Positions 27,173-42,473 of a stretch of DNA of 42,627 bases are shown here, piece after piece. Position numbers and translations under genes: made by a program. Each line of letters opens with the position of its first letter. Positions within the stretch are counted from its first letter, which is position 1. Origin of the DNA: Clostridia bacterium (lineage in GTDB: Bacteria; Bacillota; Clostridia; Oscillospirales; Acutalibacteraceae); assembly GCA_017522225.1 (NCBI GenBank), contig JAFWZR010000018.1, forward strand, positions 1-42,627, written 5' to 3'. The notes beneath the pieces are model-generated. The model did no database searches. It had not been told where the DNA came from and saw nothing but the letters and a program-made list of their open reading frames with translations.

Positions 27173-28900
27173 ATGAAGAAAAAAGCATTATCATTGGCAC
27201 TTGCACTCGTGATGGTTTTCTCGTTTACCGTCACTCCTGTTTCTGCAATCGACTTTGAATCATCTTCAGATCCGGTTACAAAAACACTTGCAAGAGTTAT
27301 CGGCACAGTTTTTGAAGACCTCGTCAGCGTTCTTAACATTTTCCTCAGAGAAAACGATAAGTTCGTAGACGAAGAAGAATATGTATACGACAACTTCTAT
27401 GAAGGCACGGCAGATTTTATCGACGAGGCAAAAGCAGGCGCAAAATGGTCTCTCGGTCAGAGCAGCGCAAGTCTTGTGCCTGAGAATTACGAGGACTATG
27501 ACCTCTTCCTCGGCGGTTTTATCAGTGAGCAGAACTTCTTCACAAACGACGTTCGCGAAGTGCTTGACGATATGAAGGTTCGTGTTATCGCTCTCAATGA
27601 CGGTTCAGGCAGAGGCACTGCAGTTTTTGCAACAATCGACTCAATCGGTGTTTCAAACGGTGACATCAGACACATCCGCGGTCTGCTTAAGGATTTTGCC
27701 GCTGAAAACAACCTTAATTCTATCAACCTTTTTGCAACTCACACTCATTCAGGTATTGATACACAGGGTCTGTGGACAGACATTTTCAGAAAATGGCCCA
27801 AGAATATTTTCAGCGCATTCACAGGCATTATTGAAACAGAGCAGGGCACTGACCCCGAATATATGGAATTCTTCTACGGCAAGGTTTGCGATGCTATCAC
27901 CGAGGCTGTTGAGTCAATGGAAGAAGGCACAATGACTTTCGCAAGAAAAGACATCGGTGCAAGATATTTCAGCAACAAGAACAGACCCTCGGCATCATCT
28001 ATGGATACTGAGCTCAAGCGTTTTGTTTTCACACCCGACGATGCTTCGGTTACACCGACAATCATCCTTAATATGTCCGCACACCCCGACGTTGTAGGTC
28101 TTGCTACGGAAGATGATCCCACAAAGGGTCACGGTGTTTCAGGTGACTATATCTACTACATCGGCGAAACAATCAACAATGCAGGCTACAACTTTATGTT
28201 CTTCAACGGCTCAATCGCAGGCATCTACATCGGCAGAATCAGCGCACCTGCAGAAAAGCGTGTTGATATCGCAGCAAACTACGGCCGTGAAATCGGCAAA
28301 ATAGTTCTCGGTATGACAATGAGCAAAAACGAAATTCTTGCTGACGATTACCTTATGAGCCTCAATTGGAAAGCTGAAGATATCGAAGGCTACCATTACA
28401 CACCGTGGTACGAGGATTGGGTTCCCGCTGAGGAAACTAAGGTTGATCCTATCCTTAACATCAAAATCGCACAGGTTGAGGTTCACGTTACCAATCCCGT
28501 TATCAAGGCTGCAGGTAAGCTCGGCGTTGTTAACTACCTTATCAAGAAATCAGACCGCAACTACTATGTAACAACAGAGATCGGCTATATGGAAATCGGT
28601 AAGGATGTCAAGGTTGCATTCGTACCCGGTGAAATCTGTACAGACCTTATCTACGGCGGCAATCAGCTTACAGCCGAAGGCTCTGTAAAAAATGAAGCAT
28701 ACGAAGGCAAGACACTTTGCGAAATTTTCGGCGATGATGTTATAATCTTCGGCCTTGCAAACGATGCTGTCGGATACATCGTTCCCGAGAACGACTACTG
28801 TATGGCACTTGCATTCGGTCATTATCAGGAGCTTCTTTCACTCGGTGAAAAGGAAGCAACCGTAATGTTTGACGCATACGAAAAGCTTCTTGAAGAATAA
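27173..28900 (+). CDS. Secreted neutral/alkaline ceramidase-like protein
   Basis: The protein has 575 residues from the ATG at 27173, which is preceded by AGGAGGAAAAATT. It has a classical signal peptide: three Lys after Met, a hydrophobic core and a Val-Ser-Ala cleavage site at about residue 25. The mature part contains Phe-Ala-Thr-His-Thr-His-Ser-Gly near residue 195, the Zn2+-type His pair of the non-lysosomal ceramidase N-terminal domain. Downstream are Ala-His-Pro-Asp-Val-Val and Asn-Gly-Ser-Ile-Ala-Gly, matching the order of metal and catalytic segments in that family. Members cleave the amide bond of ceramides, but many bacterial relatives have untested substrates. A host-lipid substrate is attractive for a gut organism but is inference. 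Monocistronic. Confidence 0.72.
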   Translation: MKKKALSLALALVMVFSFTVTPVSAIDFESSSDPVTKTLARVIGTVFEDLVSVLNIFLRENDKFVDEEEYVYDNFYEGTADFIDEAKAGAKWSLGQSSASLVPENYEDYDLFLGGFISEQNFFTNDVREVLDDMKVRVIALNDGSGRGTAVFATIDSIGVSNGDIRHIRGLLKDFAAENNLNSINLFATHTHSGIDTQGLWTDIFRKWPKNIFSAFTGIIETEQGTDPEYMEFFYGKVCDAITEAVESMEEGTMTFARKDIGARYFSNKNRPSASSMDTELKRFVFTPDDASVTPTIILNMSAHPDVVGLATEDDPTKGHGVSGDYIYYIGETINNAGYNFMFFNGSIAGIYIGRISAPAEKRVDIAANYGREIGKIVLGMTMSKNEILADDYLMSLNWKAEDIEGYHYTPWYEDWVPAEETKVDPILNIKIAQVEVHVTNPVIKAAGKLGVVNYLIKKSDRNYYVTTEIGYMEIGKDVKVAFVPGEICTDLIYGGNQLTAEGSVKNEAYEGKTLCEIFGDDVIIFGLANDAVGYIVPENDYCMALAFGHYQELLSLGEKEATVMFDAYEKLLEE

Positions 28901-31229: not shown

Positions 31230-33575
31230 TCAGTACCATATCCAACCGAACAGGACAATAACAATAATCCACTGCCACCAGGAATACGAAACATTAACTT
31301 CGCAGGTATCGGTTACCACATTTCCGTGTTCATCGGTAACTGTACAAGTAATTGTTGCACTACCTGTATCATTTGTTGTAATTTTACCGTTTGCATCAAC
31401 TGAAGCAACACTCGTATTTGAAGATGAGTAAGCAACTGTATACCTTGCACCTGAATCCGCTGAAATCTGAGGAACTAAAGTTCCACTTGACTTGTACGTC
31501 AAATTTAAACTTTCCTCTACATTCACTGAATTGACTTTTTTAGGTGCTGATTTAATTACAAAATTAGACTCTTTCTCTTTAATTCCCTCATCGTTCAAGG
31601 AAGCCAGCTTAAGTACACCTACAGCATCTTTTATCTTGTCACCAAAAGTATATGATTCGTCAAGATACTCAAACTCAGCGTTTTCTACTAAAGGTATAAT
31701 CTCAACTTCTGTCATTGTGTCGGGAATTTCGAACATTACTTCCTCAACATCAGAATCTCCCGTGTCCATAACACTCTGTTTTGCTCCAACGACATTAATT
31801 GTATCTTTTTTTGCATAAATAGCCTGTGAGAACTTAAACTTTGCTGCTAAAGAGAAATATTTTTTTACATCTCTTAAAGCTATACATGTCAGTTCGCTAT
31901 AGCTTGGTTCGCCAACTATTGCAATCTTGCCATTAGAAGTTTTATAGATATAAGATTCTTTGGTTGGACTTTCATTATCATATATATATATTCTTTCTTG
32001 TCCGTTTACAACTTCATAGCGTAAAAAGTTTACTGCATGTCCACGTACTTTTTTATCTTCACCTTTACCTGAAACATAACGAAAAGATATTTGTAGCAAG
32101 CCTGTCCCATCATATTTATGGTCTTTAACATAATTAATTGCTTCCTTCCAGTCCTCCTGAATATTATTAGGCTTTTCTAAATACCAACGACCACCTGCAA
32201 CAATCGCATTATCGGCTTCCTTGCCCTGTCTATCCTGATAAAAACAGATTGGTTTTCTGAGTTTTTCCGAAAGTGTAAGTGAATTCAAATCTTTGGTTGC
32301 AGTAATTCCTACGTATGAACCTTCTAAAAGACCCAGATAATAAGCCGCACTCGTCATGCTCATACCGAAGCAATGATAACCTTTACAGGGTTTTTTAAAA
32401 TTGGCAAATTTATATGTTTCCTCGCCCAAATTGTATATGTCATTTGTTTTTTTCCATTGGGCATATAATGTTGTTGTGCAACTGCCATAGGTAAGATTGG
32501 GATTAATCTTTGAAGGCTTCAGTGAACTGTCATCATCATGGAAAACAGTTCCACCTGATGCAGAAGTTCCCCAACCGACAAAAGTATAACCTTTTTTGTA
32601 TAATCCTAATGTATCTACACCGTTTACTAATCCGTTTTCTTTTGTACTGTCATAAGCCCATTTTTGTGTAGCATCTTTTAAAGTGTCGCGATGATAAACC
32701 ATATCGTTTTTAACTATATACTTCTCGCTGTCAGTTGTTCCGCCGTTTGCGTTGAAATATAATGTTAAAACAAAATCAGTTTCTGTTCCTTCAGTTACAA
32801 AATAGTTAACGGGACTGCATCGTTCAGTACCATTAGTGGTAATGTAATAAAGTTTATAAAAATATTTTGTACCCGGTGTAAGTTTCCCATAATACTCGCT
32901 CATTGTGTAAGCTATATTTTCACAACCGGTGAAATAACCATCTTTCTTTGAATTTTTCTTCAAATTAGATTCACTTGTTCCGATGTAAAAACCTGCCTCT
33001 TTAACGGTTGTAGCTTTTGCTAAATCACCGGAAATCCTTGCGTCGGTCTTGCCGAGTGAAACAGTTGTAACTTTACTGAAATACGAGTTTGTTTTCTGTG
33101 TAAAATCACCTGCAACATTACCCGCTTCTGTAGCAAACCAACCTACCGGACTGCAACGTTCTACTCCGCCGGTTGTGATATAATACAACTTATAGTAATA
33201 TTTTGTGCCGGATTTGAGTGTCCCATAATATTCGCTCATTGTGTAAGCAATGTTTTCGCAACCGGTAAAATAACCGTCCTTCTTTGCATTTTTCTTCATA
33301 TTAGATTCACTTGTTCCAATATAGAAACCTGCTTCTTTAACAGTTGTGGGTCTTGCGAGATCGCCGTGAATCCTTGCGTCGGTCTTGGTAACCGAGCTGA
33401 CCCAAATCTTACTGAAATAATTGTTTGAGTTTGTAGCTTTCCCTGCATTCGAATCGACCGCATTTGCTTCAACCGAAAAATCTAACAAGTCGGCAAATCC
33501 ACCTGATGGAGCTACACTCAATAGCATTACAGCAACAATAACTGCCGCCAATGTTCTTTTAATAAATGTTTTCAT
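31230..33575 (-). CDS. Secreted multidomain protein with putative papain-like peptidase domain
   Basis: The 781-residue protein has a signal peptide (residues 1-28). Two near-identical fibronectin-III-like repeats follow at about 53-150 and 164-262, both with Glu-Ala-Gly-Phe-Tyr-Ile-Gly-Thr-Ser-Glu-Ser and Tyr-Tyr-Ile-Thr-Thr. A Listeria-Bacteroides (InlB-B type) repeat spans 270-375, with Asn-Ala-Asn-Gly-Gly and Gly-Tyr-Thr-Phe-Val-Gly-Trp. Residues 385-590 have His401-Cys402-Phe-Gly-Met-Ser, Arg-Gly-His513-Ala-Val-Asn and Tyr-Asp533-Asn534-Glu, in the order of a papain-like Cys/His/Asn peptidase. A Big_2-type Ig domain occupies 680-762. The last 17 residues are a Trp-rich hydrophobic tail ending Leu-Phe-Gly-Trp-Ile-Trp-Tyr. 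The ATG has TAGGAGGAAATTTT upstream. Peptidase function is inferred from spacing only. Confidence 0.75.
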   Translation of the reverse strand: MKTFIKRTLAAVIVAVMLLSVAPSGGFADLLDFSVEANAVDSNAGKATNSNNYFSKIWVSSVTKTDARIHGDLARPTTVKEAGFYIGTSESNMKKNAKKDGYFTGCENIAYTMSEYYGTLKSGTKYYYKLYYITTGGVERCSPVGWFATEAGNVAGDFTQKTNSYFSKVTTVSLGKTDARISGDLAKATTVKEAGFYIGTSESNLKKNSKKDGYFTGCENIAYTMSEYYGKLTPGTKYFYKLYYITTNGTERCSPVNYFVTEGTETDFVLTLYFNANGGTTDSEKYIVKNDMVYHRDTLKDATQKWAYDSTKENGLVNGVDTLGLYKKGYTFVGWGTSASGGTVFHDDDSSLKPSKINPNLTYGSCTTTLYAQWKKTNDIYNLGEETYKFANFKKPCKGYHCFGMSMTSAAYYLGLLEGSYVGITATKDLNSLTLSEKLRKPICFYQDRQGKEADNAIVAGGRWYLEKPNNIQEDWKEAINYVKDHKYDGTGLLQISFRYVSGKGEDKKVRGHAVNFLRYEVVNGQERIYIYDNESPTKESYIYKTSNGKIAIVGEPSYSELTCIALRDVKKYFSLAAKFKFSQAIYAKKDTINVVGAKQSVMDTGDSDVEEVMFEIPDTMTEVEIIPLVENAEFEYLDESYTFGDKIKDAVGVLKLASLNDEGIKEKESNFVIKSAPKKVNSVNVEESLNLTYKSSGTLVPQISADSGARYTVAYSSSNTSVASVDANGKITTNDTGSATITCTVTDEHGNVVTDTCEVNVSYSWWQWIIVIVLFGWIWY

Positions 33576-33660: not shown

Positions 33661-33700
33661 CAACAGCTATTATAAGCAATCAATTAAGATCGAGCTGTTG
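33661..33700 (-). terminator. Possible weak terminator after the propeller-like gene
   Basis: Eight-base arms (CAACAGCT/AGCTGTTG) surround the stop codon with a 24-nt loop, then AATTAAATTTTTT. The long loop makes it weak, so read-through into the multidomain gene is possible. Confidence 0.35.
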
Positions 33701-35104
33701 CTTAACAAATTTCCATTGACCTTTATCAGATTCTTCATCTGTATATTCAAAATAATAGAAACCGTTTGCCGAAAGATTTTTGCTGTCACGTTCAACACAA
33801 AACTCATTCGGTACTTCACACACGCCATCCGCAGAACCGTCAGCATTAACCTTGTCGATATATTTTGTGTTATATTGCGGCAACTCCCTGTAAGAGAACC
33901 ACTCGCCATTGAAATCAAAATATTCAGATCTATCATAAGGAATTGATATCATTTCACCGGTTTCAGCATCATAAAACCTGTGACTTTCTGTTTTCTCAAC
34001 ATATGTCTTATCTGTAACATCTGAATAAGCCTTTCCGCGGCCACAATAAATAAATCTGTCCGGATAAGCTCCGCTTATAAAATCACTCAGTTCATTGATT
34101 TTAAGCGTTTTCAACACTTTAGCTCCACTACCGTCAAAATTACATTCCTTGATCGTCATCGGATATTCATACTCATAAAAATCCTCGTTGATCAAATCGG
34201 ATGATTCTTCATCAATAATTCGATAAATGATTTTATCATCCTTAACATAGCTGAATCGAGCGCCGTCTTCCAGCGTATATATCTTTTCATTTTTAACATC
34301 TACAACTTTGGTCGGGTATGCATCAGCAATAATGTATGTATCAGTTTCAGTTATAAAAACATTATAATCAAAACCTTTGCTCCAATCGCAGACAACTTTT
34401 GAAGTTTTTGTTTTTAAATCATATCTGATTAAAATACAATTATTACCGTATGAATCAAAATCGCCGTAATAACCGATCTGACTTTCAGGAATATCACTGT
34501 AATACAAACAGCTTTCATCAAAATAAACCACGTCGTTAAGTGCACAATTTGTTTTTACTACAGACTCAAGTTTATCGTCAGAGAGAGTATATTTCATTAA
34601 TTCTCCAATGTAATAATCATCCCAGCCGTCAATGTATTCACCATCAGGTCCATATTTATATTTAGGATTAACCTTAACATTGGGATCTAAAACGATCTTC
34701 TCAATATAGAGTGTGTTTCCATCAAAAGCACGCGGCTCGTATTCTGTTGAAAAGGTCTTTACTACCTTTTCTGTTTTTTCATCAATAATTCTTAATCCCA
34801 AATCATCATAAACAATTCCGTAATTATCAAACGTCATAACACCACGATGCCGTAATTCGCTCGGCACTATAATTTCTCTGATCATTTTCTTGTTTGCTTC
34901 TTTTATCGGTGTTTTATCTGAATCTGTATTCAAAACAGAAGTCAATGAGTCTATCTCTGTTGCAGATGTTGTAGTTGATGTTGAGTTCTCAACATCTGTC
35001 TTTTTATCAGCATTTCTCTTTCCTATGAAAACTCCCGCGATGATACCTGCAACAATCACAACCGCTACTGCTGCGCAAATTATGATTTTCTTTTTATCTT
35101 TCAA
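33680..35104 (-). CDS. Membrane-anchored extracellular protein with propeller-like repeats
   Basis: The protein has 474 residues from the TTG at 35104. That start is chosen because GAGGGAG lies 5-6 bases upstream and because the product then begins exactly like its upstream neighbour (Met-Lys-Asp-Lys-Lys-Lys). One transmembrane helix spans residues 7-30 and is followed by a Ser/Thr-rich linker (35-60). The extracellular part has repeated strands of the form Ile-Leu-Ile-Arg-Tyr-Asp-Leu-Lys-Thr, Val-Val-Tyr-Phe-Asp-Glu-Ser and Tyr-Ile-Ile-Ala-Asp, like DUF5050-type or WD-like propellers that report on surface binding. No catalytic motif seen. It is the second gene of the operon behind the LytTR-type site at 36119-36148. 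Confidence 0.72.
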   Translation of the reverse strand: MKDKKKIIICAAVAVVIVAGIIAGVFIGKRNADKKTDVENSTSTTTSATEIDSLTSVLNTDSDKTPIKEANKKMIREIIVPSELRHRGVMTFDNYGIVYDDLGLRIIDEKTEKVVKTFSTEYEPRAFDGNTLYIEKIVLDPNVKVNPKYKYGPDGEYIDGWDDYYIGELMKYTLSDDKLESVVKTNCALNDVVYFDESCLYYSDIPESQIGYYGDFDSYGNNCILIRYDLKTKTSKVVCDWSKGFDYNVFITETDTYIIADAYPTKVVDVKNEKIYTLEDGARFSYVKDDKIIYRIIDEESSDLINEDFYEYEYPMTIKECNFDGSGAKVLKTLKINELSDFISGAYPDRFIYCGRGKAYSDVTDKTYVEKTESHRFYDAETGEMISIPYDRSEYFDFNGEWFSYRELPQYNTKYIDKVNADGSADGVCEVPNEFCVERDSKNLSANGFYYFEYTDEESDKGQWKFVKQQLDLN

Positions 35105-35159
35105 TGTGCTCCCTCTTTTCAAATTTCATCAAATCATTTTTAATAAGACAAAAATACTT

Positions 35160-36053
35160 TTACGCTTTTTCGATTTTGTAGAAACTCCACAGACTCTTTC
35201 CTTCAACAGTTTTCATTTCAGCAACAACATTGAGGTCTAAGATTTTTTCTCGGTCATCACCCCAATTTACATAATAAGTAGCTTTGATTGAATACTTTCC
35301 GTCATTCATAACGTCAATATCATTTATATCAATTTCCGGACCTGCGCCGTCGCCACCTTCATCACCGCGATAGTAATAATCACCATCATAGTAGTATGCA
35401 TGTACTTGGCCGTCTTTTGACTTAAGAACGTAGTTATGGTCAGGAGTTATATTGAAAACGGTCTTCAGTGCCATATCGATGTACTCTGCATCAACTATGC
35501 AATAGTATTCTCCTAACACCCCTTTGGGATCAGGATCAACAGCGTCTGTGCTTTCGTTATAACCGGCTCCGTCGTTAATACAAAAATCCCACCAGTTATA
35601 AATGTCACTTATCTCTTCGGCAAGAGTATAGTATCCCGTCATAAGACTGCTGTATGCAAATCGCTTTGCTGATGCAGCTTTGTAATCATAAGGCTTAAAA
35701 TTTTTCAATTCATGCTCCTTAAAGTCCTCGTAAGAAACACTTTCTGAATCAAAATTAAACCAAAGAATATGACCTAGAATATCAGAAAAGTTTTTTCTGT
35801 CCGTATTGCTTATGATTCCGTCAACAACCGTTACACTGACTGCTTTTTCAGTGCTTGTCGGCATCTCTGTTGTGGTTGTGGAAACTTCTGTCGTTGTAGA
35901 AGCTTCTGTCGTTGTTGTCGTAGATATTGTGCTGCTTTCAGTTTCTTCATTCTTATCAGTATTCCTCTTTCCGATAAAAATTCCCGCGATGATACCTGCA
36001 ACAATCACAACAGCTACTGCTGCGCAGATTATGATTTTCTTTTTATCTTTCAT
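35160..36053 (-). CDS. Membrane-anchored extracellular protein, Thr-rich linker
   Basis: The 297-residue protein starts at an ATG preceded by GCGGAGGGG. Residues 1-30 are a basic stop-transfer start and one transmembrane helix nearly identical to that of the next gene. Residues 38-72 are a Thr/Ser/Glu linker with Ser-Thr-Thr-Thr repeats, of the kind that spans the cell wall and may be glycosylated. The C-terminal 220 residues form a Tyr/Asp-rich extracellular domain with Tyr-Tyr-Asp-Gly-Asp-Tyr-Tyr-Tyr and acidic stretches; I do not recognise the family. It is the first gene of the operon with the propeller-like protein, 55 bp apart, and lies under the second LytTR-type promoter. Confidence 0.75.
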   Translation of the reverse strand: MKDKKKIIICAAVAVVIVAGIIAGIFIGKRNTDKNEETESSTISTTTTTEASTTTEVSTTTTEMPTSTEKAVSVTVVDGIISNTDRKNFSDILGHILWFNFDSESVSYEDFKEHELKNFKPYDYKAASAKRFAYSSLMTGYYTLAEEISDIYNWWDFCINDGAGYNESTDAVDPDPKGVLGEYYCIVDAEYIDMALKTVFNITPDHNYVLKSKDGQVHAYYYDGDYYYRGDEGGDGAGPEIDINDIDVMNDGKYSIKATYYVNWGDDREKILDLNVVAEMKTVEGKSLWSFYKIEKA

Positions 36054-36084: not shown

Positions 36085-36090
36085 ACTATA
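36085..36090 (-). promoter_or_regulatory. -10 box of the LytTR-type promoter of the anchored-protein operon
   Basis: Leftward TATAGT with TGA before it (extended -10). The -35 position (36108-36113) reads CGAAAT, far from consensus, as expected for an activator-dependent promoter. Confidence 0.65.
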
Positions 36091-36118
36091 TCACAAATTT
36101 TTAAAAAATTTCGCCAAA

Positions 36119-36148
36119 GGGTACGAATCGTTTAAAATACGGTACGAA
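36119..36148 (-). promoter_or_regulatory. LytTR-type direct repeat upstream of the anchored-protein operon
   Basis: Two copies of GGTACGAA (36120-36127 and 36141-36148) have a 21-bp period, two helical turns. The first copy and the following TCGTTTAAAAT are identical to the site at 40400-40418. Twenty-eight bases (36091-36118) separate the element from the -10. Confidence 0.75.
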
Positions 36149-36156
36149 AAATAAAT

Positions 36157-36186
36157 CACCTCCGAAACCGTAAGATTTCAGAGGTG
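36157..36186 (-). terminator. Terminator of the RR-HK-LRR operon
   Basis: A 13-bp stem leftward (CACCTCTGAAATC with GGTTTCGGAGGTG, two G-U) and TTAC loop, followed by ATTTATTTTTCG. It ends directly before the next LytTR-type site. Confidence 0.7.
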
Positions 36187-36199
36187 TTTCAATATAATT

Positions 36200-38275
36200 T
36201 TATCTGAATATTTTTCTGAAGAAGTTGATAATTTTAGAGGTTATTCTCAATGCACTTGTTATGAAGTGGTCGGTCACTTTTTCCCACAGTTCTTCAAACG
36301 TCAGTTGCTGTTTACCCTCCTGAGAAACAAGCTCGAACATAAATGAATCATAATCTCCGTTTTCAAGCAACGTCAGGAAAGCTTCAAATGTTACGCCCTC
36401 AGTTGATCCACCCTTAACTTTTTTCAGGCTGACATAAAGCTTGTTGAACGTAAGGTATTGTGCACCTGCCTCATTGTTAAGATCGTTGATATCAATCGTC
36501 TCCGGCACAACCCCGTGAAAAACAAGCTTTTCAAAGTAAAGATATTCCATTCCCGGATTCTGCTTTACAAACTTTGACAGGAAAGTATACGGCAAATCAG
36601 AATAAACCGTCAGCTCTCCGTTGAAGTTCATTACTTTTTTTGTATGATCATACGAGAAAGTAATGCTCTTGATCAACTTTTCTTCCGCATAGTCTGCCGC
36701 CTGAGTGTTTGCAGGGTTGCAGAGAAAAACAAGTCTTTCATCGTTACCTGCGAACGAGGTTTCATCTGCCGTGAACCTCGCACCGCTTACAGTAACGAGC
36801 GACAGCAACGGACAATCCGCAAAGGCATTTGCTCCGATCGTTCCTATTGACTCGCTGAGGTAAACCTCTTTAAGATTCGGGCATCCGTAAAACGCATTGC
36901 TTCCTACCGACACAGCGGCATTACCAAACTCAACAACTTCGATCTGATCTTTAAAATAAGACCAACCGTATTCCTCAAACGAAGCAAGGCTGTCCATTTC
37001 TCCGCTGCCCGTAATTGATAAAACTTTGCTGTCCTCATCAAACGACCATGTAAGCGTTTCGCCGCAGTTGCCGAAAGATTTGCCATAGTTGTAGTGGATG
37101 GTAGCGTTCAAAAGACAATCATTTTCATTCGCAAATGTGATAGCTTCCCATTCTTCTTGCGTTCCTGAATAAAACACATCTGTTATTGCTTCGCAAGATC
37201 TGAACGCACCATATTTTATTGTTTGAACAGAGACAGGCAAAAAAACCTCTTTCAAATTATCACAATACAAAAAAGCTGAATCAGAAATTGACTTAACTCC
37301 CGCAGGTATTTCTATACGGTTAATTCCGCAACCGGTAAATGCGTCACTATAAAAAGAAAGCACACTTTCCGGTAAGATTACTTCTTTCAAATAATCAGAT
37401 GATAAGGCATAAACACCAATAGACTTAACGCCATCCGGAACAACAAACTTTTCGTTTTCAAGGCAATCCGGATATTTCAGCAAAGTTGTTTTATCTTTAT
37501 TGTACAGTACACCATTGTCATCTGAGCTAAAATACAAATTCTCTTCACTGACTTCAATGGAAACAAGTGCTTTTGACAATAAAGCTTGTCCCGCCTCATA
37601 AATCGTTTTAACATTTTTAGATATATAAAAAGATTTAATTGCGGTATTAGTAAATGCTCTCTGCCCTATTTCAGTTAAACTCATCGGAAGATCCGCATTT
37701 GATAGTTTTTCGCACGACGAAAAAGCTTCCTTACTAATACGTTCGAGCCCTTCAGGAAAATTAATGCTTTCCAGATTATCGCACATATAAAAAGCTTCCT
37801 GGCTTATTTCAGAAACACTGTTCCCCAAAACAACCGTTCGCAAGTTATCACAATGATTAAAAGCACAATATCCTACAATCGTCACGGTATCCGGCACGAC
37901 GTATTCTGTCATTTCACTCGCCGCCGGATATTTAATCACCTTAGTTTTGTCCTTGTCGAACAGCACACCGAACTCATCTGCACAAAAATATTCATTGCTT
38001 TCTTCTACGACAAATTCCTTTACTTTGTATGCTTTTGTCCAAAATGCCCGCGATTCATATCCACTTACAGGATATCCGTTAATTTCTGCCGGAATCTCAA
38101 CTATTTCTTTCGTGTGATCATAACCGGTGATAATCACAGATCCATCTACAACTTTGTACGTAATTCCACCGGGATCAGTTAAAGTATCCGCCGCAAAAGC
38201 TTCAATCGAGGCTATTGTTGATAAAATAACTGCACATGCCAAACACAAAGATAAAGTTGCTTTAATCTTTTTCAT
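36200..38275 (-). CDS. BspA-like leucine-rich repeat surface protein
   Basis: The 691-residue protein has a signal peptide (residues 1-29, cleavage near Ala-Phe-Ala-Ala). Most of it consists of LRR_5 (BspA-type) repeats with the pattern Ile-X-X-X-Ala-Phe-X-X-Cys-X-X-Leu-X-X-Val/Ile-X-Leu/Phe-Pro. Examples are Ala-Phe-Asn-His-Cys-Asp-Asn-Leu near residue 137 and several later copies. Residues 560-650 are a different, Phe/Leu-rich domain, and the C-terminus ends in a basic amphipathic helix (Arg-Lys-Ile-Phe-Arg). There is no LPXTG motif. BspA-type LRR proteins commonly mediate adhesion. The ATG at 38275 overlaps the kinase stop by 14 bp and has AAAGGAGAAGAG upstream, so it is translated with the kinase. 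Confidence 0.85.
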   Translation of the reverse strand: MKKIKATLSLCLACAVILSTIASIEAFAADTLTDPGGITYKVVDGSVIITGYDHTKEIVEIPAEINGYPVSGYESRAFWTKAYKVKEFVVEESNEYFCADEFGVLFDKDKTKVIKYPAASEMTEYVVPDTVTIVGYCAFNHCDNLRTVVLGNSVSEISQEAFYMCDNLESINFPEGLERISKEAFSSCEKLSNADLPMSLTEIGQRAFTNTAIKSFYISKNVKTIYEAGQALLSKALVSIEVSEENLYFSSDDNGVLYNKDKTTLLKYPDCLENEKFVVPDGVKSIGVYALSSDYLKEVILPESVLSFYSDAFTGCGINRIEIPAGVKSISDSAFLYCDNLKEVFLPVSVQTIKYGAFRSCEAITDVFYSGTQEEWEAITFANENDCLLNATIHYNYGKSFGNCGETLTWSFDEDSKVLSITGSGEMDSLASFEEYGWSYFKDQIEVVEFGNAAVSVGSNAFYGCPNLKEVYLSESIGTIGANAFADCPLLSLVTVSGARFTADETSFAGNDERLVFLCNPANTQAADYAEEKLIKSITFSYDHTKKVMNFNGELTVYSDLPYTFLSKFVKQNPGMEYLYFEKLVFHGVVPETIDINDLNNEAGAQYLTFNKLYVSLKKVKGGSTEGVTFEAFLTLLENGDYDSFMFELVSQEGKQQLTFEELWEKVTDHFITSALRITSKIINFFRKIFR

Positions 38276-39551
38276 TCTCTTCTCCTTTCAGAATAAACCC
38301 TACCTGAATTTTAAACACATTATTTTCACAGCTCAGCTCAACAAATCCATTATAATCCTTTGCCGTCTTTTTTACAAGCGCAATGCCAAAGCCGTGGTTT
38401 TCTTTATCTGCCTTCGAAGTTTTTACTTCGTTGTTTTTTATTCTGATATTGTCGATAACCGGATTTGAAACATTGAGAACAAAACCGGTTGATGTTTCGT
38501 TTCCGACAACTTTAATTCTTGCTTTTTCTACGCCTTCACTGCCCCGTATTGCATTATCCAATGTGTTGGATAAAACCGTACAAAGGTCGTTGTTGGTTAT
38601 TCCCGATTGCGGAATTGACCCACTGAAATCAACTTCTATTCCTGATTTTTCTGCCTTAGCCGCTTTATCATTAAGTATTGCATCCGCAAGATAGTTTCCC
38701 GTTGAAAATCTGCTTTGAGCTACCATAAGATTGTCGTGCAAACCGTCTATATATTCAATAGCCTCAGCTGTTTTTCCTGCATCAATAAGCGATCTTAACG
38801 AAATCAGGTTGTTTTTATAATCGTGTCGGAAGCCACGGATATCTCTGTTCTTTATTACCATATCCTCATAGTGTTTCAGCTGCAGTTCAAGACTTTTTTC
38901 AGTTTCCTTCTGCTCGCGCACAAGAGAAGAAAACTTGTAAAATGCATAAGAAATACACACAACAACAAGTACAACAGAAATCAGCATCAATGCATTTCCG
39001 ACATCGCTGTAATATTCCGGGTCGCTGTTTTCCGTAATGCTGTAAAAAGTCGCAAGGCTGGCAATATAAATGACACCGTATACCGGCAACGGAATCTGTT
39101 CCAAAAATTTATCAGGAATAATAATACTTTTTTTCCTGATTATTATATAGCACAAAAAAAGAACCACCGCATACAAACCGCAATATACCAGAGTGGACTG
39201 TACCGCCGAAAGCTTAACAAAAACTGATGTTATACTGAACACTACAAAATCCATCAGTCCGCAGAAAGTCAAACCAAACAAAGCAAATGTCAGTTTTTTC
39301 CCGCAGCGGAACAAAATATACGGCGACAACGTAAAGCTAAGCAGTATTATTGCTTCAACCATTAGGTCAAAGGTTTCAAAATCAAAACACAGATACGATC
39401 CCGTAACAAGAAAAAAAGCAGAAATGAGGACAGCGGACAATCTCCACTTCCCCTTTCTGCTTTCATAATTTAAAAAACTATTCAAAACGTAACTTTCAGT
39501 TGTTATTCCGAGAAGAATCTGCAAAAGACTTGCGAAAAAATTTACAGTCAT
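38262..39551 (-). CDS. GHKL (AgrC-like) sensor histidine kinase
   Basis: The 429-residue protein has six or seven hydrophobic segments within residues 5-205, a short coiled segment (210-235), then the dimerisation/phosphorylation motif Phe-Arg-His243-Asp-Tyr-Lys-Asn. The GHKL ATPase domain has an N-box (Asn-Thr-Leu-Asp-Asn333-Ala) and a G-box (His-Gly-Phe-Gly-Ile-Ala, 386-391). Phe-Arg-His-Asp-Tyr-X-Asn and the polytopic sensor are typical of the AgrC/ComD class that often senses peptides. It lies 9 bp after the LytTR regulator gene and overlaps the LRR gene. No AgrB/AgrD-like peptide genes were found nearby, so the signal is open. Confidence 0.92.
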   Translation of the reverse strand: MTVNFFASLLQILLGITTESYVLNSFLNYESRKGKWRLSAVLISAFFLVTGSYLCFDFETFDLMVEAIILLSFTLSPYILFRCGKKLTFALFGLTFCGLMDFVVFSITSVFVKLSAVQSTLVYCGLYAVVLFLCYIIIRKKSIIIPDKFLEQIPLPVYGVIYIASLATFYSITENSDPEYYSDVGNALMLISVVLVVVCISYAFYKFSSLVREQKETEKSLELQLKHYEDMVIKNRDIRGFRHDYKNNLISLRSLIDAGKTAEAIEYIDGLHDNLMVAQSRFSTGNYLADAILNDKAAKAEKSGIEVDFSGSIPQSGITNNDLCTVLSNTLDNAIRGSEGVEKARIKVVGNETSTGFVLNVSNPVIDNIRIKNNEVKTSKADKENHGFGIALVKKTAKDYNGFVELSCENNVFKIQVGFILKGEENEKD

Positions 39552-39560
39552 TTATATCCC

Positions 39561-40268
39561 TCAGTCATTTCTTTTGTTAATCCATTTTAAATAGTGCTCG
39601 CAGAAATCGTTATACTTCTGCGGACTCATAAAAATTTTTTCACCGTTATCGAGCTGAACTATTCTCTTGTCAAAGCTCTTGACTTTATCAACATTAACCA
39701 GATATGAGCGATGAATTCTGAAAAAGCCTAAAGGATTAAGTTCCTTTTCGAGGGAAGAAATCGTCCTGTGGCAAACGACATAACCTTTATTAAGATAAAT
39801 GTAAACATCCTTTCGGGACACTTCCATATAGTATACATCTTTCAAGCTTATAATGTCATTTCTTCCGTCAATCTTAACCAAGAGCTTTCTTCCGGCATAA
39901 TTTGTAGCAACAAAATTATCAAGTGCCTCAAAAACTTTCTCCGATTGAATCGGCTTTAATAAATAGCGATGTGTTCTTACCTCAAAGGCTTCGTAAACAA
40001 AATCCGAATACGCTGTTATAAAAACAATGCCTTTTTCTTCACCATAATCCCTGCGTATGATTCTCGCAAACTCAAGACCGTCTATGCCGTCAGGCATTTT
40101 GCAGTCAAGAAAAAACAAATCATAATCAGAAATTCTGTCGATCAATTCATCAAAGTTCAAAAATACATCGTACGATATTTGTATATCCTTCATTTGGATA
40201 TAATCTTCCAAAACACCGGCTATAACATTTAATGTATTTTTGTCATCATCACACACAGCAATTCTCAT
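39561..40268 (-). CDS. LytTR-family response regulator
   Basis: The 235-residue protein has a receiver domain (1-120) with Asp7-Asp8-Asp9, phospho-acceptor Asp55 in Phe-Leu-Asp-Cys-Lys-Met-Pro, Thr85 and Lys105 in Leu-Leu-Lys-Pro. The LytTR DNA-binding domain follows (about 128-230): Asp-Val-Tyr-Tyr-Met-Glu-Val, His-Arg-Thr-Ile-Ser-Ser-Leu-Glu, and Phe-Phe-Arg-Ile-His-Arg-Ser-Tyr-Leu-Val-Asn. LytTR proteins bind two direct repeats about 21 bp apart, and such repeats lie upstream of this gene and of the operon at 36 kb. It forms a two-component pair with the adjacent kinase. Confidence 0.95.
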   Translation of the reverse strand: MRIAVCDDDKNTLNVIAGVLEDYIQMKDIQISYDVFLNFDELIDRISDYDLFFLDCKMPDGIDGLEFARIIRRDYGEEKGIVFITAYSDFVYEAFEVRTHRYLLKPIQSEKVFEALDNFVATNYAGRKLLVKIDGRNDIISLKDVYYMEVSRKDVYIYLNKGYVVCHRTISSLEKELNPLGFFRIHRSYLVNVDKVKSFDKRIVQLDNGEKIFMSPQKYNDFCEHYLKWINKRND

Positions 40269-40295
40269 TGTTAATGCTCACACCCATCGTACATA

Positions 40296-40324
40296 ATTAT
40301 AATATAAATAAAATAATATTTCAA
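40296..40324 (-). promoter_or_regulatory. Canonical promoter of the LytTR operon
   Basis: Leftward TTGAAA (40319-40324), 17 bp, TATAAT (40296-40301), 28 bp before the ATG. It lies downstream of the LytTR-type promoter and could give a basal level of regulator and kinase. Confidence 0.7.
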
Positions 40325-40364
40325 CAAGTTAATAAAAACCCATTGAATATCGTACATTATTTAT

Positions 40365-40370
40365 ATAGTA
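40365..40370 (-). promoter_or_regulatory. -10 box of the LytTR-type promoter of the regulator operon
   Basis: Leftward TACTAT, with CGAAAA at the -35 position (40388-40393); this matches the CGAAAT in the same position at the 36-kb promoter. Confidence 0.55.
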
Positions 40371-40398
40371 ACATAAAATTTCGAGTTTTTTCGTCAAA

Positions 40399-40428
40399 CG
40401 GTACGAATCGTTTAAAATTGGGTACGAA
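40399..40428 (-). promoter_or_regulatory. LytTR-type direct repeat upstream of the regulator operon
   Basis: Two GGTACGAA copies (40400-40407, 40421-40428) with a 21-bp period; 28 bp (40371-40398) to the -10, the same as at 36 kb. The intervening 28 bp differs in sequence between the two loci, so the shared spacing is not simply recent duplication. Confidence 0.75.
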
Positions 40429-40574: not shown

Positions 40575-40832
40575 TTCCCCTGACAGGGAAAGTGTCACGA
40601 AGTGACAAAAGGGTGTGAACCTGTGACATTTACGGTCAGAAATAAGGTCGCCTTGCTCGCTTGGTGACTCCCCACAGTGTGGGGAGATGTCTGCGAAGCA
40701 GACAGAGGGGACGGCCGCCGTCAGCGGCGCTTCGCAATTCTCCCTATTTCTTCCTACTCGATGACTTGACTATTCGTCCACCGGACGGTCAAGTCATCTC
40801 GTCAGTTAACAGCCGCGGTATTAACTAACGAG
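40575..40832. repeat. Array of six stem-loops beside the recombinase
   Basis: Successive inverted repeats: TTCCC/GGGAA (40575-40590), TGTCAC/GTGACA (40593-40607), CTCCCCACA/TGTGGGGAG (40668-40686), TGTCTGC/GCAGACA (40688-40704), ATGACTTGAC/GTCAAGTCAT with an inner CGTCC/GGACG (40761-40797), and CTCGT-AGTTAA with TTAACT-ACGAG (40798-40832, overlapping the recombinase 3' end). It codes for nothing visible and looks like a dispersed palindromic repeat or a structured end of a mobile element. Confidence 0.65.
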
Positions 40833-40865
40833 GTGTTGCATATGAGAGCCATTTGATACACAAAA

Positions 40866-40901
40866 GAAAAAGACAGAAACCCGAAAGTTCGGATTTCTGT
40901 C
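40866..40901 (-). terminator. Terminator inside the 3' end of the recombinase frame
   Basis: Arms GACAGAAA-CCGAA and its partner (40872-40885/40888-40901) pair over 13-14 bp with one G-U and a 2-nt loop in the DNA count, followed leftward by TTTTTCTTTT. Transcripts would end before the annotated stop codon, so the true C-terminus is uncertain. Confidence 0.75.
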
Positions 40902-40910
40902 CTTTGGCGC
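40887..40910 (+). repeat. 24-bp direct repeat, copy 2
   Basis: Matches copy 1 at 40538-40561 in 21 of 24 positions. The two copies flank the hairpin array, 349 bp apart. Confidence 0.6.
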
Positions 40911-42374
40911 AGCAACGGTTGTTGAATCCGAACTTAACGGTAAATTTTCAACTTCAACCAACCGGACGGCTTCAGTGCCGTCCTTGTAGTTGAAGTTAAT
41001 CACTAATCTGTCCTCAAACAAATGAACTGAATTCAGAAACAAATCTATCAGTCTTCGTTTGTGGTCTTTTCTTTTCACTCCGTACTTTTTCAGCTCTCCG
41101 AACCATTCAAGTATCATTTCTTTTGTCAGCATCGGCTGTTCGATTTCTTCCCTTATTATCTGTGCAGATAATTCAGCCTTCTGCTTTTCTAATTCTTCGA
41201 GCCTGTCCTTTGTCGATGAAGTAAGTATTCCCTGCTGAATTGCATCGAGCATATTGTCAATTCCTCGTTGAATATCAGCATATTGTTTTTTCAGCATCGG
41301 AAGTGTTGTGTTTTCTTTTTTCTGCAGCTTCAATATCTCGTCTGCGACTTTATCAAGCAGTTCATTGTTATGTAAAATCGTTTCAATCTGTTTTAAAACA
41401 ATTTCTTCAATCCAATCCTTCTGAACAGTTTTCTTGTCGCAATCGTGCTTCTTTTTTACTCCGACACATTTGTAATAGTAATACTTTTTGTCTGTATGAC
41501 TTGTACCGCTCTCCCCTACCATAAGTCTGTTACATTTGCCGCAGAACAGCTTTGTTGTCAGAAGATAATCTTCATCTGCCTTATGTGTTGCAGGTGCTTT
41601 TTTCGTTTCTTCAATCCTGCGTTGAACCTTATCGAACAATTCCTGCGGTACAATTGCAGGTATTCCGTTCGGGTGTACAATATCCTTGTATCTGTATTCA
41701 CCGATATACTTTCGGTTATGTAACATTCGGGAAACAACATTGTCGCTGACTTTTTTGCCTTTGGTTGTTCTGATACCTTTGCCGTTCAGTTCTTCTGCTA
41801 TTTCTTTCATTGTCTTTCCTTCTGCATAGCTTTGAAACGCTTCAAGAACAGCAGGAGCTGTTAACGGGTTAATCTGATAAAATTGATTTTTATCAATCAC
41901 ATATCCGATTGGGATATTGCAGCCTATCGACTTGCATTTCAAAGCATTTTCGGTTCTGCCGCGAATGACTTTTACCGAAAGTTCTTTAGAGTAATACTCA
42001 GCCATACCTTCAAGCATTGATTCTAAAATTATTCCATTGGGGTCATCAGAGATATGCTCAGTTATAGAAATAACCTTAACCCCATTCTTTTTAAGTGTTG
42101 CTTTGTATTTCGCACTATCATAACGATTTCGGGCGAAACGGTCAAACTTCCACAACAATAATTGTATCGAATTTGTTTTTTGAACTGTCTTTAACCATTC
42201 TTTGGAAATCGGGTCGGTTATCTGTTCTTGCAGAACGAGCTCTGTCTATGTATATACCTACAATGGTTTGTCCGTTCTTTTCTGCATAAGCCTTGCATTC
42301 ACGAACCTGACCTTCAATAGATTCCTCGCGTTGGTTACTGCTTGAGTATCTTGCATATATAACTGCGTTCATTT

Positions 42375-42473
42375 TCATTCCTCCATTCCGGATTTAATAT
42401 AGCGCGCAACAGCGCTTTTGTAAAGGCCGTAAGCTTTACTTTTTGAATAATTTATTTTGATTGAGTTGTTCAT
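42375..42473 (-). CDS. Small protein upstream of the recombinase
   Basis: A 32-codon frame (ATG at 42473, AAAGGATTGATAGA upstream) ends in TGA overlapping the first recombinase ATG candidate, and contains the recombinase ribosome site. The product is basic, with Lys-Ala-Tyr-Gly-Leu-Tyr-Lys. I do not recognise it. Position and RBS support translation; its role, perhaps excision or regulation of the element, is inference. Confidence 0.5.
   Translation of the reverse strand: MNNSIKINYSKSKAYGLYKSAVARYIKSGMEE

Follow-up and report, generated by a model that had tools for sequence, protein, structure and literature searches.

Which regulator reads the paired repeat that stands before two neighboring operons in a 42,627-nucleotide (nt) stretch of DNA from a member of the Acutalibacteraceae (Clostridia bacterium, GenBank contig JAFWZR010000018.1; hereafter, the window)? 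The motif GGTACGAA occurs there as a direct repeat upstream of an operon for a LytTR-type response regulator and again upstream of an operon for anchored and secreted proteins. We favor, with a probability of roughly 0.8, the reading that these elements are sites of the adjacent LytTR regulator (39561-40268), which would activate a local regulon and, by positive feedback, its own operon.

The motif lies on the plus strand at 36120, 36141, 40400, and 40421, exactly the two pairs with a 21-bp period that an earlier note on this DNA, made without database searches, had described; single copies occur at 28619 (minus strand) and 30048 (plus strand). These six matches compare with 0.90 expected, and none of 100 shuffles yielded at least six. 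The pattern GGTACGAA-N13-GGTACGAA matches twice in the window without mismatches (36120-36148 and 40400-40428), against chance expectations of 8e-6 for the window and 3e-4 for a 1.58-Mb genome under a first-order Markov model. The source genome (G000; 1.58 Mb, 69% complete; G, C, and L numbers denote genomes, contigs, and stretches, respectively) holds the pattern at up to two mismatches only at these two places, with none in the control, so the scan that the note had proposed finds no scatter of the pair. At up to three mismatches, the counts (5+4 versus 5+7 in the control) are background, and only near-exact matches are therefore informative. Summed over the 18 genomes of our genus comparison, counts at up to three mismatches for this pattern, called clade A below, likewise did not exceed the backward control; for G003, G005, G007, G015, G016, and G017, this holds among the matches listed, and the best locus of G007, G015, G016, and G017 was inspected separately. 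A recurrent two-mismatch match, GCTACGAACC...GGGGTTCGAA, resembled a tRNA gene by eye and was dropped. Because the target genes are on the minus strand, the half-site in promoter sense is TTCGTACC, and the elements with their putative promoters are as follows.

40400..40428, minus strand: direct repeat TTCGTACC-N13-TTCGTACC before the regulator operon, found by pattern search and kept in genome G012
40365..40393, minus strand: predicted promoter core of the regulator operon, with the -35 position CGAAAA (40393-40388), TG, and the -10 hexamer TACTAT (40370-40365)
40296..40324, minus strand: candidate second promoter TTGAAA-17-TATAAT, 11 of 12 consensus positions, by consensus match only
36120..36148, minus strand: direct repeat TTCGTACC-N13-TTCGTACC before the surface-protein operon, found by pattern search
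36085..36113, minus strand: predicted promoter core of the surface-protein operon, with the -35 position CGAAAT (36113-36108), TG, and the -10 hexamer TATAGT (36090-36085)

Both promoters follow one layout. The repeat is separated from the -10 hexamer by 29 nt at both sites, not by the 28 bp given earlier, and TG stands one base ahead of each hexamer, forming an extended -10. The -35 reading CGAAA(A/T) holds. The intervening segments, said to differ otherwise, are in fact identical at 18 of the 29 bases between repeat and -10, and the N13 spacers at 11 of 13. According to the portions of PMC4847170 available to us, LytTR sites are 9- to 11-nt repeats with 11- to 13-nt spacers and are described as lacking a common consensus. 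The element of the regulator operon, with nine identical bases and N12, lies within this range, and the one at 36120, with eight identical bases and N13, is one base below the published length. The available portions of PMC6193735 place such sites just upstream of the -35 position, also at the regulator's own operon. The TTGAAA-17-TATAAT promoter at 40324-40296 is likely, judging from its sequence, the basal promoter of the regulator operon. Since it is the nearer of the two to the regulator gene, this operon probably has both a basal and a repeat-bearing promoter.

The regulator operon itself comprises three genes and a terminator-like structure.

39561..40268, minus strand: response regulator of 235 amino acids with receiver and LytTR domains and the motif FFRIHRS (Pfam, alignment)
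38262..39551, minus strand: sensor histidine kinase of 429 amino acids with a hydrophobic N-terminal half and a GHKL ATPase domain
36200..38275, minus strand: secreted BspA-type LRR_5 protein of 691 amino acids, whose open reading frame (ORF) shares 14 bp with the end of the kinase ORF
36157..36186, minus strand: terminator-like hairpin of 13 pairs after the regulator operon

The LytTR domain (PF04397) scores 71.7 bits against a curated cutoff of 22.6, and the receiver domain (PF00072) scores 50.6 against 30.2. FFRIHRS matches the family motif FhRhHRS as given in the accessible part of PMC4227749. Comparison of the regulator with solved structures returned 15 matches, of which 14 were receiver domains and one (3d6w) a DNA-binding part. 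The kinase scores 71.3 bits for PF14501, with hydrophobic segments inside residues 37-211. An adjacent kinase with a membrane part and a GHKL domain thus makes this the locus of a two-component system. The hairpin at 36186-36157 separates the regulator operon from the second repeat-bearing promoter.

The closest regulator in the genus, 79% identical, is encoded in G012 (C6:52821-53513, L038), and upstream of it stands TTCGTACC-N13-TTCGTACC, 29 nt from an extended -10, with one mismatch in 24 specified bases. The repeat is thus maintained before the orthologous gene with equal spacing and -10 distance. In the window and in G012, the one ortholog found, the site lies before the regulator gene and points to it, a pattern predicted for an autoregulated operon. 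Two further pairs in G012 precede genes for a dockerin protein (C10:27330) and a 247-residue secreted protein (C18:5329), the latter site adjoining a good TTGACA -35. Related pairs precede a gene for a relative of this dockerin protein in G013 (45% identical over residues 1-534), a protein kinase gene in G003 and G005, and a lipoprotein gene in G008; the dockerin-protein homolog of G000 (37% identical) has no such site upstream. G017 carries a clade-A-like pair (C76:7644-7708; L070 / L116) with one mismatch and TG-N-TATTAT at 29 nt, and G001 carries a two-mismatch site with the -10 at 29 nt. The G017 pair precedes a short frame for a helix-turn-helix protein, with no clear surface-protein target. 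A profile built from six clade A promoters was run on 198 genomes with strict filters, 26 candidates being scored per genome; such a search can miss weak sites, and the G012 C18 and G001 sites are not among the matches listed. It recovered seven strong matches (the six model members and the G003 twin), then G008 at 1.9e-5, and then near-noise rows, three of which were weak matches on one contig of G035, from another genus, around a regulator 48% identical to that of the window.

That contig belongs to a second group with its own half-site. Clade B regulators, 48-49% identical to the window regulator and from another genus, are accompanied by TTTCTGTACC. In G035, three promoters with TTTCTGTACC-type direct repeats, a 21-bp period, and 29 nt to the -10 flank a regulator-kinase-LRR operon. 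A search with the repeat alone (10 bases with N11) found 11 sites in 6 of the 11 genomes of that genus and none in the control, with the -10 at 29 nt in 10 sites and at 28 in one. Once redundancy is removed, 10 sites remain, 6 of them no more than 10 kb from a regulator-kinase-LRR cassette. Clade B sites flank the cassette in G242 and G384 as well.

A third type, TTTCAGACC, occurs in the source genome itself, which encodes a second regulator-GHKL kinase pair (regulator C31:35296-36006; L053, L171; 39% identical). Repeats of this type stand at secreted leucine-rich repeat (LRR) genes next to the pair and next to its relatives from G011, G002, and G003. Yet another LytTR protein of G000 is encoded at C3:16100-16777. 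Over the 18 genus genomes, the clade C pattern yielded nine sites, none in the control, and only in the four genomes where this regulator clade was seen. Because sites near clade C regulators served to define the pattern, presence in these four is partly built in; absence from the other 14 is not. Seven of the nine sites lie within about 8.5 kb of the regulator, and the remaining two precede one orthologous, secreted dockerin-like gene elsewhere.

Taken as 26 non-redundant sites (8 A, 10 B, and 8 C), these elements differ in half-site and share a geometry. In 20 of them, the distance to a downstream TANNNT box is 29 nt, and in none of the 26 does it fall outside 28-30 nt; the background mean is 0.56 per offset. 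Sixteen sites came from repeat-only patterns, and in this subset the box is at 29 nt in 13 and at 28-30 nt in 16. Four clade C sites were picked by eye, and six of the 26 were found with -10 information in hand (the two window sites, three G035 sites from the profile, and one G002 site). Outside the set stand clade D (G007 and G010b, 22-bp period), clade E (G020, TTCGTTGCTT twice), the weak sites of G003a and G003b (8665), the two-mismatch G001 and one-mismatch G017 sites, and duplicates (G003 of G005, G490 of G433, and G003:C142 of G011:C32). By eye, the -35 is poor in most of the 26 promoters and the -10 extended in many, and the repeat ends 6 nt before the -35 position. Sixteen sites lie within 10 kb of the matching regulator gene. 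The first downstream protein has a hydrophobic N terminus in 21 of 26 cases, compared with 103 of 226 ORFs in a control drawn from these loci, the targets included.

A tree of 18 regulators grouped the window regulator with that of G012 (94/95), G035 with G384, the four clade C members, and the two clade D members; the position of G242 was unresolved, and two rows had long branches. The loop EVSRKD precedes the LytTR core in both members of clade A, in G035, and in G384 (GTACC ends); three of the four clade C regulators have EVFHKD there. This correspondence between loop and half-site hints at matched specificity; it is a hint rather than proof because G242 combines an EVSLKN loop with a clade B half-site. 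The distant regulator of G020 (C20, L172; 34% identical) has TTCGTTGCTT twice with a 21-bp period upstream of itself and a near-copy before a nearby gene, possibly a fourth half-site type.

The sites, their spacing and conservation, and the change of half-site with regulator clade are observed; for binding, phosphorylation, and activation we draw on LytTR biology (PMC4847170, PMC6193735, and PMC4227749). On this basis, the GHKL kinase (38262-39551) would phosphorylate the LytTR regulator, and two regulator subunits would then sit on the same face of the DNA, each on one TTCGTACC half-site and separated by two helical turns. Once bound, the regulator would bring RNA polymerase to promoters whose -10 is extended and whose -35 is poor. 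More transcript would then come from the regulator-kinase-LRR operon, in clade A as positive feedback atop the basal promoter, and from the neighboring operon for anchored and secreted proteins. The regulator could instead act as a repressor at these sites, a reading we consider quite unlikely. Sequence does not reveal the direction of the effect, and the G012 C18 site stands beside a good -35; however, the combination of a poor -35, an extended -10, and a gap of 6 nt between repeat and -35 resembles the layout of LytTR-activated promoters in the available portions of PMC6193735.

Could the two promoters be alike simply through recent copying or homogenization of one upstream region, with no common regulator? 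The identities that extend into the spacer (11 of 13 bases) and downstream (18 of 29) would fit this origin. It is nonetheless highly improbable, given that half-sites and the 29-nt distance are kept at unrelated genes, namely those of dockerin proteins in G012 and G013 and of the protein kinase in G003/G005, and that clade B and C sites retain the geometry and not the half-site sequence.

Several observations do weigh against control by the local pair. Clade-A-like sites occur in G013, G003, G005, G008, G017 (one mismatch), and G001 (two mismatches), and in these six genomes the closest regulator is absent or 22-46% identical to that of the window. G013 and G008 each have a single LytTR match (open frames of 162 and 154 amino acids), and no LytTR match was found in G001, an assembly 95% complete. 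Such genomes lend some weight to a reading in which the sites belong to a different LytTR or other regulator encoded elsewhere, the local pair being just a target. The G012 regulator is solitary, without an adjacent kinase gene, although its upstream site is kept, and a kinase search of that genome gave at best a distant, partial match. Of the 12 stretches around further sites, 11 yielded no relative of the regulator or kinase; the exception was L208, which lies on the clade C contig of G002. Some sites of each set would therefore be under control in trans. The clade B site adjoining the regulator points to a divergent gene, and no site was seen before the clade C regulator; autoregulation is therefore not a general feature. 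Repeat scans around other cassettes (15 loci and 11 loci) gave no convincing site at six cassette regulators (G032a, G032b, G017a, G010a, G003a, and G017b), that of G003a having a degenerate one. In the 11-locus scan, 20 of 95 upstream regions held a 21/22-bp repeat versus 8 in shuffles, five of them clade B sites and two the G020 repeat; most others look like chance. At the window locus itself, the nearer TTGAAA-17-TATAAT promoter could make the upstream repeat dispensable for regulator expression.

A regulator encoded elsewhere remains unlikely all the same. In G000, the near-exact sites are at this locus only, the 79% ortholog in G012 retains its site, and clades B and C have different half-sites beside their own regulators. 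Moreover, the regulators not found may reflect gaps in incomplete assemblies, most of the six being 61-91% complete. Control by the adjacent LytTR regulator is thus the reading we retain. The earlier interpretation, a LytTR-type site with autoregulation and control of surface proteins, gains support from the conservation in G012 and from the other clades' own half-sites near their own regulators. This support does not extend to autoregulation as the only control, in view of the nearer consensus promoter, or to an exclusive tie between site and regulator, in view of the sites in the six genomes above.

A broader proposal, which we put forward tentatively and regard as doubtful in full, is that these loci form a family of surface-sensing cassettes of three genes, for a LytTR regulator, a GHKL kinase, and a coupled secreted LRR_5 protein that would supply the kinase with extracellular input or act as its partner. 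Every cassette would control its own secreted LRR, dockerin, or anchored proteins through the fixed-geometry promoter. The half-sites TTCGTACC, TTTCTGTACC, and TTTCAGACC would have changed along with the regulator clade, allowing two switches to coexist insulated in one genome. The third gene of regulator-kinase cassettes encodes an LRR_5 protein in all eight scanned. The C-terminal ends of cassette LRR_5 proteins resemble one another in a short, cationic stretch of helix-like character (ITSALRITSKIINFFRKIFR in the window, ALRAISSVINFIAKLFRKK in G035), which may mark this LRR_5 group.

The second operon under a repeat-bearing promoter has the following features.

35160..36053, minus strand: target gene 1, a 297-residue protein with an N-terminal membrane anchor and a Ser/Thr-rich linker
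33680..35122, minus strand: probable target gene 2, a 480-residue protein whose anchor resembles that of target gene 1 (63% identity over 65 amino acids)
31230..33575, minus strand: probable target gene 3, a 781-residue secreted Big_2 protein with the C-terminal WWQWII...LFGWIWY
31196-31169 and 31161-31138, minus strand: two terminator-like sites after target gene 3

The terminator scan listed none on the minus strand in the two gaps between the three genes. The first two proteins have no listed similarity beyond the common anchor, as if an anchor module had been duplicated between their genes. A hydrophobic aromatic tail, roughly QWII...FGWIW(Y/W), ends several secreted proteins, that of 31230-33575 and others in L171, L166, L169, and L085, and is perhaps an anchoring or sorting signal. 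Beyond the regulator operon, a serine recombinase at 40821-42378 is split over two frames (40821-42158 and 42142-42378), which suggests a decayed mobile element.

The mechanism is already known in kind. AgrA-type regulators are LytTR regulators too, and they partner a GHKL-type kinase, as the window regulator does. Unlike in Agr systems, the third gene here encodes a secreted LRR_5 protein, and the targets are secreted LRR, dockerin, and anchored proteins; no AgrB-like protein was found among the 10 window proteins scanned in Pfam, short propeptides not having been searched for. In Escherichia coli, the LytTR response regulator YpdB acts at the yhjX promoter through the direct repeat GGCATTTCAT with a 21-bp period (PMC4847170, in part). 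The clade C half-site (C)ATTTCAGACC resembles GGCATTTCATTCC. Unlike YpdB, the window system has the clade A half-site TTCGTACC and a GHKL kinase partner followed by an LRR protein. The LytTR Regulatory Systems HdrRM and BrsRM, as far as the available portions of PMC6193735 describe them, have direct repeats, mostly with a 21-bp period, before their own operon, with some extended -10 elements. Their partner is a membrane inhibitor protein, and they are described there as distinct from two-component systems; the window regulator, by contrast, has a receiver domain and a GHKL kinase, which places it outside that group. In the parts of the site table that we could use, their half-sites are mostly of the ACCxCTTAx type and often lie 10 bp before the -35, whereas the distance here is 6 nt.

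The apparent novelty lies in giving this group its sites and regulon, in the repeated occurrence of the regulator-kinase-LRR cassette, and in half-sites that differ by clade on a fixed geometry. A literature search of partial coverage met no work on a LytTR-GHKL-LRR_5 cassette, which does not establish its absence from print. A group of LytTR/GHKL systems of gut Clostridia, represented here by assembled genomes, thereby gains DNA sites, and hence a testable regulon, as well as a link to secreted LRR and dockerin proteins. Three natural versions of the half-site on one promoter geometry constitute a ready set for testing how LytTR domains choose their DNA. The comparison with related species suggests a small, local switch for secreted surface proteins, ordinary in mechanism, in a little-studied setting.

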